Assembly: GCA_017615635.1 (NCBI GenBank)
Contig: JAFZZR010000099.1
Coordinates: forward strand, 62,001-126,000
Reading direction: 5' to 3'
DNA from: Lentisphaeria bacterium
Lineage (GTDB): Bacteria > Verrucomicrobiota > Lentisphaeria > Victivallales > UBA1829
Length of the DNA: 64,000 nucleotides
In this document: positions 313 to 902 of the stretch, piece after piece
Layout of the letters: each line of letters begins with the position of its first letter
Position numbering within the stretch: position 1 is the stretch's first letter
Position numbers and translations under genes: made by a program
The notes under the pieces: model-generated
Seen by the model: only the letters and a program-made list of their open reading frames with translations
The model's database searches: none
What the model was told of the DNA's origin: nothing

Positions 313-819
313 TTATTCGCCGAGAAGGATCACAACAAACATCAGCATCGGTTTCGGCATTTCATCCCATTGTTCAACGACCGCGATGGCCGACCCGGAA
401 GTTCCGTTTCCCCGGTAAATACGGAGAAGCGGCCCCTGATATTCCAGCGTGTAGGCGGCCGACCCCGATGTACTGCTGCCCCGGTAGATCCTGGGCGTCG
501 ATCCGTGCTCCCAGACATAGCAGGCCGATCCGGAGGTGGAAGATCCATGGTACATCCGGATCAGGGAGCCGCTGTATTCGAAACAGTATGCCGTTTCTCC
601 GGACGTGGAACTTCCACGGTAGATCCTAGGCGTGTTCCCCGGTTCGTACGTGAATATGGCGCTGCCGGAGGTGGAACTGCCCCGATAAAGACGCTTTTCG
701 GACGGAGGATAGTTGTATACGGCGGAACCGGAGGTGGAACTGCCCCGATAAAAAACGGCACCCTGCAGCGAAGGGATCGCCAGCAGACAGGCGAACAGCA
801 TAACATATCTCAAAAGCAT
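313..819 (-). CDS. Small secreted protein of six YRGSSTSGSA repeats
   Basis: I do not recognise a named family. The 168-residue product starts with a signal peptide (MLLRYVMLFACLLAIPSLQG) and is otherwise almost entirely six imperfect tandem repeats of 21-23 residues. Each opens with Y-R/H-G-S-S-T-S-G and continues with an alternating hydrophobic strand, a Gly/Pro turn and RI or RM before the next unit. The last copy is degenerate (YRGNGTSGSA). The chain ends in a hydrophobic segment, MLMFVVILLGE. The pattern fits repeated beta hairpins exported to the periplasm or surface. A promoter lies just upstream (874-902) and manC follows 45 bp downstream. Function unknown. Confidence 0.85.
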   Translation of the reverse strand: MLLRYVMLFACLLAIPSLQGAVFYRGSSTSGSAVYNYPPSEKRLYRGSSTSGSAIFTYEPGNTPRIYRGSSTSGETAYCFEYSGSLIRMYHGSSTSGSACYVWEHGSTPRIYRGSSTSGSAAYTLEYQGPLLRIYRGNGTSGSAIAVVEQWDEMPKPMLMFVVILLGE

Positions 820-873
820 CGGATCACCCTCAATTTTCGTACAGATTCCTTATCCCGGGATCTGACAACGGTA

Positions 874-902
874 AATATACAGCAGCGGAGCGAAGAAATC
901 AA
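874..902 (-). promoter_or_regulatory. Promoter of the repeat-protein gene
   Basis: On the minus strand TTGATT (897-902) and TATATT (874-879) are separated by 17 bp, about 50 bp upstream of the start codon at 819. It matches the promoter pattern repeated elsewhere in the window. Confidence 0.55.

Follow-up and report, generated by a model that had tools for sequence, protein, structure and literature searches.

A repeat protein of a Lentisphaeria bacterium as a predicted six-fold beta-flower with uniform loops

The beta-flower fold was first described in 2023 from AlphaFold models as a shallow barrel of four-, five- or six-fold symmetry and up to twelve strands, whose loops are nine residues long on one side and short on the other (Durairaj et al., PMC10584680). 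In many beta-flowers, the barrel encloses a C-terminal hydrophobic helix, and a semi-conserved [DNEQ]xxG motif is located at the hairpin tip; the fold was placed in the Tubby clan, and searches of the PDB gave no similarity (PMC10584680). Relative to Tubby, the beta-flower has shorter strands and loops, and its helix has a different point of entry; Tubby-like proteins serve as scramblases or as binders of phosphoinositides (PMC10584680). Neither PDB sequence search nor Foldseek turned up a solved structure of the fold, and the literature searched contained neither a functional study of any beta-flower nor a reported ligand for one.

The gene and its six repeat units

The window, a stretch of 64,000 nucleotides from a Lentisphaeria bacterium, is part of contig 21 of a genome of 3.7 Mb. 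As noticed in a preliminary description made from the letters alone, an open reading frame on the minus strand (313–819) encodes a repeat protein of 168 amino acids (aa) plus stop. Its upstream neighbor on the same strand is a Na+/H+ exchanger gene (1014–2381, PF00999); on the downstream side, a further gene begins that we take to have a nucleotidyltransferase-like N-terminus (AGGKGERFWP). The features assigned are the following:

313–819, minus strand: gene of the predicted beta-flower protein, 168 aa plus stop (open reading frame, Pfam PF21786, AlphaFold2 model)
825–831, minus strand: probable ribosome-binding site GAGGGTG, 5 nt ahead of the ATG (read from the sequence)
874–902, minus strand: sigma-70-like promoter match TTGATT-17-TATATT, no better than chance (2 found versus 1.3 expected)
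760–819, minus strand: putative signal peptide, aa 1–20 (signal-peptide rules)
688–750, minus strand: unit 1, aa 24–44, YRGSSTSGSAVYNYPPSEKRL (repeat analysis)
622–687, minus strand: unit 2, aa 45–66, YRGSSTSGSAIFTYEPGNTPRI (repeat analysis)
553–621, minus strand: unit 3, aa 67–89, YRGSSTSGETAYCFEYSGSLIRM, tip EYSG (repeat analysis, model)
487–552, minus strand: unit 4, aa 90–111, YHGSSTSGSACYVWEHGSTPRI (repeat analysis)
418–486, minus strand: unit 5, aa 112–134, YRGSSTSGSAAYTLEYQGPLLRI, tip EYQG (repeat analysis, model)
364–417, minus strand: unit 6, aa 135–152, YRGNGTSGSAIAVVEQWD, loop and strand followed by the C-terminal segment (repeat analysis)
319–354, minus strand: C-terminal hydrophobic helix, aa 156–167, KPMLMFVVILLG, presumed barrel plug (DSSP on the model, mature residues 136–147)

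The units start at residues 24, 45, 67, 90, 112, and 135 (spacings of 21, 22, 23, 22, and 23 residues), and their 13-residue core has a mean identity of 69%. The YRGSSTSGSA-type 10-mer occurs in six copies, whereas none of 200 shuffled versions of the mature chain had more than one. Both the six units spaced 21–23 residues apart and the hydrophobic ending that the preliminary description had claimed were thus borne out, the latter being DEMPKPMLMFVVILLGE (aa 152–168), which comes after the loop and first strand of unit 6. This end is 82% identical to both orthologs described below, compared with 61–65% for strands and linkers. The linkers are of two kinds, G-[NS]-T-P-R-I at the end of units 2 and 4 and E-Y-x-G-x-L-[IL]-R at the end of units 3 and 5, so that a unit-pair pattern is superposed on the six-fold one; unit-versus-unit scores were 79–80 for the pairs 2/4 and 3/5 and 19–63 for the remaining pairs.

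Residues 1–20 resemble a Sec signal peptide, which points to export of the protein. Cleavage probably occurs after G20, and the GA junction is kept in both orthologs. No lipobox Cys is present at the end of the signal peptide; the only early Cys (Cys11) lies within the hydrophobic core and is missing from ortholog L034. The protein is apparently not lipid-anchored.

Family assignment and predicted structure

The Pfam model PF21786 (Bflower_3, '6-fold beta flower protein') matched the 168-aa protein with an E-value of 1.5e-8 and 35 bits, a marginal score, 1 bit above the curated cut-off of 34 bits; the closest ortholog, L002, was not reached by the model when taken alone. Since the match was marginal, the assignment was tested in further ways. 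In a profile–profile comparison, the 168-aa protein plus its ortholog matched seven PF21786 relatives of the same phylum (59–120 bits to PF21786, all above cut-off) with 99.5% probability and an E-value of 4.8e-23, the match being collinear from the signal peptide through the C-terminal helix. Because repeats inflate profile E-values, the argument rests on this collinear architecture besides the numbers. A bridge is provided by relative L024, which has six YRGSSTSG units and a C-terminal hydrophobic segment, scores 59 bits to PF21786, and is 38% identical to the 168-aa protein. We conclude with high confidence that the 168-aa protein is a six-fold beta-flower of the PF21786 kind. The preliminary description had found no family for the repeat and had held that a match to a known one would overturn this; the match just above cut-off, with a concordant profile comparison, supersedes that statement. 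Membership in PF21786 is an ordinary assignment, and it removes the puzzle of a repeat with no family.

A search of NCBIfam returned noise only, and no above-cut-off match to PF21784 or PF21785, the other beta-flower families, was found in the host genome. Ortholog L040 scored 26.8 bits to DUF5648 (cut-off 25), to which the 168-aa protein had no match.

Several further repeat proteins were seen in these searches. A PF21786 relative at L023:1444–1884 has five units instead of six, followed by a hydrophobic segment at the C-terminus, indicating that the unit number changes within the family. L051–L056, which come from several species of genus g9, all have six YPNGNCNGIPVGYF-type units and a hydrophobic C-terminal segment and may represent a further beta-flower variant missed by Pfam. 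Repeats of the type YYYDxxGxPAGRSxTSGNTT with signal-like N-termini were found in L027, L028, L030, and L031 (22–32 bits to PF21786, below cut-off), L027 and L028 reading alike though from different genomes. Beta-flower genes also occur on viral-collection contigs (L035:2953–3423 and L062:1935–2384) and in phage record MT837148 (6523–6894).

The best of five AlphaFold2 models of the mature chain had a pLDDT of 92.9 and a pTM of 0.87, with twelve strands and a C-terminal helix at mature residues 136–147 (precursor 156–167). As the pLDDT of the five models ranged from 92.9 down to 56.4, the model quoted is the best of a spread. The alignment used had four rows, namely the 168-aa protein, ortholog L034, and the PF21786 proteins L035 (93.7 bits) and L062 (70.1 bits); the latter two are from viral-collection contigs, and both rows were out of register around units 4–5. 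Splitting a viral-collection relative into fragments gave no better alignment, and AlphaFold on the bare single sequence gave an unusable model (pLDDT 40).

The protein fits the published beta-flower layout in its twelve predicted strands, its RGSSTSGSA loops of about nine residues, and its C-terminal helix. The [DNEQ]xxG tip is present in only two of the six units (EYSG in unit 3, EYQG in unit 5), units 2 and 4 having ExG. By analogy with the published fold, a closed twelve-strand barrel can be inferred, with the helix KPMLMFVVILLG likely acting as its internal plug. Six hairpins in a secreted protein had been among the earlier suggestions, and the twelve-strand model supports them. With the model as query, Foldseek matched nothing in the PDB or the viral set at E ≤ 0.001, in agreement with the lack of similarity in PDB searches reported for the fold (PMC10584680).

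Orthologs, distribution, and loop evolution

Searches of other genomes, of the kind that the preliminary description had proposed for other Lentisphaerota proteins, revealed orthologs in addition to the YRGSSTSG relative L024. An ortholog in another genome shares the six units and their register at 65–67% identity, and a second one, from a different taxonomic family, is 62% identical. As orthologs keep six units in register, the reading frame is real and conserved. The sequence of L034, which is that of L002, belongs to a Lentisphaeria MAG obtained from sheep colon. The closest subgroup consists of the 168-aa protein and those of G011 and G064 (62–65% identity); its hallmark is the terminal DE[MLV]PKPMLMF, in which form the helix segment is kept in the orthologs.

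Of 388 genomes sampled from the phylum, 16 had PF21786 matches and 22 had matches to a profile of the subgroup of the 168-aa protein, some of the weakest being doubtful; one of these, L057, resembles an unrelated FAD-type enzyme. The gene stands alone and has a patchy distribution, and its flanking genes vary among hosts; a conserved gene neighborhood was seen among the family loci only for the two sister genomes G009 and G010. With the 168-aa protein alone as query, pattern-based searches of genome and viral contigs and tblastn in phages and plasmids gave no matches. The weak matches L003, L004, and L007–L013 (G024, G025) were rejected as relatives; they resemble CRISPR arrays read in frame. 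Such CRISPR-like arrays of G024 and G025 mimic repeat proteins in translated searches, and a Cas1-like open reading frame is found at L004 1216–2106.

The loops were compared within and between proteins that had been picked by similarity and unit patterns and thus form a non-random sample. In a set of seven canonical relatives, positions 7 and 8 of the unit were 95% identical among the units of one protein and 16% and 22% identical, respectively, between proteins, and positions 11–20 showed no within-protein excess (mean +0.01); the strands lacked a contrast of this kind. In the subgroup of the 168-aa protein, the within-protein excess was largest at positions 4–7. YRG is followed by Tyr in 6/6 units of G064 and by Ser or Asn in the 168-aa protein; despite this loop change, linkers and tail of G064 are still 1:1 orthologous to those of the 168-aa protein. 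The loops of the 168-aa protein and its nearest ortholog are 87% identical. At most loop positions, codons for the same amino acid were more alike within a protein than between proteins (0.62 versus 0.14 at canonical position 9), and at positions 12–15 they were nearly equally alike, a comparison in which codon bias differences between genomes are only partly controlled for. At the sequence level, these data suggest short-tract DNA exchange centered on the loop.

The sister genomes G009 and G010 carry a divergent flower-like gene (L068:8251–8799 and L069:6310–6858) with six units and W[QK]GG..DYDS loops, which read GRVDY (4/6) in one and GSTDY (4/6) in the other. The two proteins are 77.6% identical, compared with 92–99.6% for the products of eight flanking genes; dN was 0.135 (0.002–0.042 in the flanking genes) and dS 1.22 (0.15–0.61). 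The C-terminal codons resemble the flanks (dN 0, dS 0.37). The simplest reading of these sequences would be that the repeat part was swapped for a divergent allele.

Loops near-invariant within a protein and different between proteins are expected if the ring of loops is one six-fold surface. The pattern fits such a symmetric contact surface, and DNA homogenization alone could also yield it. We further consider it conceivable, if rather improbable, that a symmetric recognition ring evolves as one unit: short DNA exchanges would spread a new loop to each of the six petals and ligand specificity would switch, with strands, linkers, and plug helix unchanged.

Proposed role, alternatives, and comparison with known systems

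As the best overall explanation, held with modest confidence, we propose a Sec-exported six-fold beta-flower whose loop ring binds a ligand outside the cytoplasm. The 168-aa protein would be exported via Sec and act as a secreted or periplasmic binding protein. Each unit would contribute two strands, xIYRG and AYTLEY; the nine or so residues RGSSTSGSA would make up the loop after the first strand, and xG a short tip after the second. The six units would close into a shallow twelve-strand barrel, the hydrophobic channel of which would be filled by the C-terminal helix, making the scaffold rigid. On one face, the Ser/Thr/Gly-rich loops of the six units, almost identical to one another, would be arranged as a six-fold ring. 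That this ring is the ligand-binding face is a tentative assignment, to which we give slightly less than an even chance; a glycan, an anionic lipid head group, or a cell-surface polymer may be bound outside the cytoplasm.

With regard to the fold, the preliminary description had suggested a small propeller or solenoid, which we consider very improbable. Six units are present, and a weak profile match to WD-repeat chains was obtained (5nnz, E 0.0014); however, the best single stretch reached only E 0.48, and this match, like one of the sequence to an agglutinin (E 0.18), was rejected as a match of repeat composition. The unit has two strands in about 22 residues, whereas a WD or kelch blade has four in about 42, the PDB propellers listed by Foldseek (kelch, WD40) had TM-scores of 0.12–0.27 with E ≥ 0.027, and the sequence matches PF21786 instead. 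That the open reading frame is a chance or low-complexity one without a folded product is hardly credible: the repeats are Ser/Gly-rich and the single-sequence model is poor, but orthologs at 65% and 62% identity retain the six units, the 1:1 linkers, and the C-terminal segment, and the PF21786 match is accompanied by a confident model.

With regard to function, the same barrel might have its C-terminal helix swung out into the membrane, yielding a tethered protein that binds or moves lipids in the manner of the Tubby/scramblase relatives of its clan. In favor of this, the helix combines strong hydrophobicity with good conservation, clan CL0395 unites beta-flowers with Tubby C-terminal domains, the latter's relatives have the lipid-related activities cited above, and Arg or His follows the first Tyr in 6/6 units. 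Yet a helix of about 12 residues preceded by P-K-P is too short for membrane crossing, the basic residue varies in relatives (P, S, or R in L024; E, K, or R in L045), and many published flowers were described as enclosing the helix; we regard this alternative as unlikely. The protein could also be a secreted factor against competitors or other environmental agents, its loops changing fast in an arms race. The loop tips that vary among relatives and are uniform inside each protein, the divergence between G009 and G010, and the solitary, patchy gene are all compatible with this. However, dS is raised as well in G009/G010, so that a swap for a divergent allele accounts for much of the divergence without selection, no conserved partner gene lies alongside, and the loops of the 168-aa protein are near those of its nearest ortholog. 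An arms race thus appears quite unlikely, and we retain the exported beta-flower with a ligand-binding loop ring as the preferred reading.

The fold itself was already known, and it is the loop pattern that offers a testable lead on what beta-flowers recognize. Since loop tips are uniform within and changed between proteins, few residues would have to be swapped for testing recognition by the fold, and the family-wide pattern merits a proper test. Being small, predicted with high confidence, and apparently without a lipid anchor, the 168-aa protein is a good candidate for the first beta-flower structure.

Among known systems, beta-propellers with near-identical blades likewise have internal repeats that are alike inside one protein; the 168-aa protein differs from them in unit length and strand number and in the low TM-scores given above. 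With the Tubby C-terminal domain and phospholipid scramblases (clan CL0395) it would share a twelve-strand barrel around a hydrophobic helix, and the [DNEQ]xxG hairpin-tip motif of these proteins is present in its units 3 and 5; there was no sequence match to them, and none was among the 50 best Foldseek PDB matches listed. PF21784 and PF21785 share their fold class with PF21786. The PF21786 relatives have in common with the 168-aa protein six collinear units of two predicted strands each, with loops of around nine residues at one side and short tips at the opposite one, as well as a predicted C-terminal hydrophobic helix and a putative N-terminal export signal. They differ in unit length (19–20 residues in the relatives compared, 21–23 in the 168-aa protein) and in the loop (Y[RK]GxSTxxSDC versus YRGSSTSGSA), and the 168-aa protein is set apart by linkers that alternate in two types and by a C-terminus with PKPMLMF.
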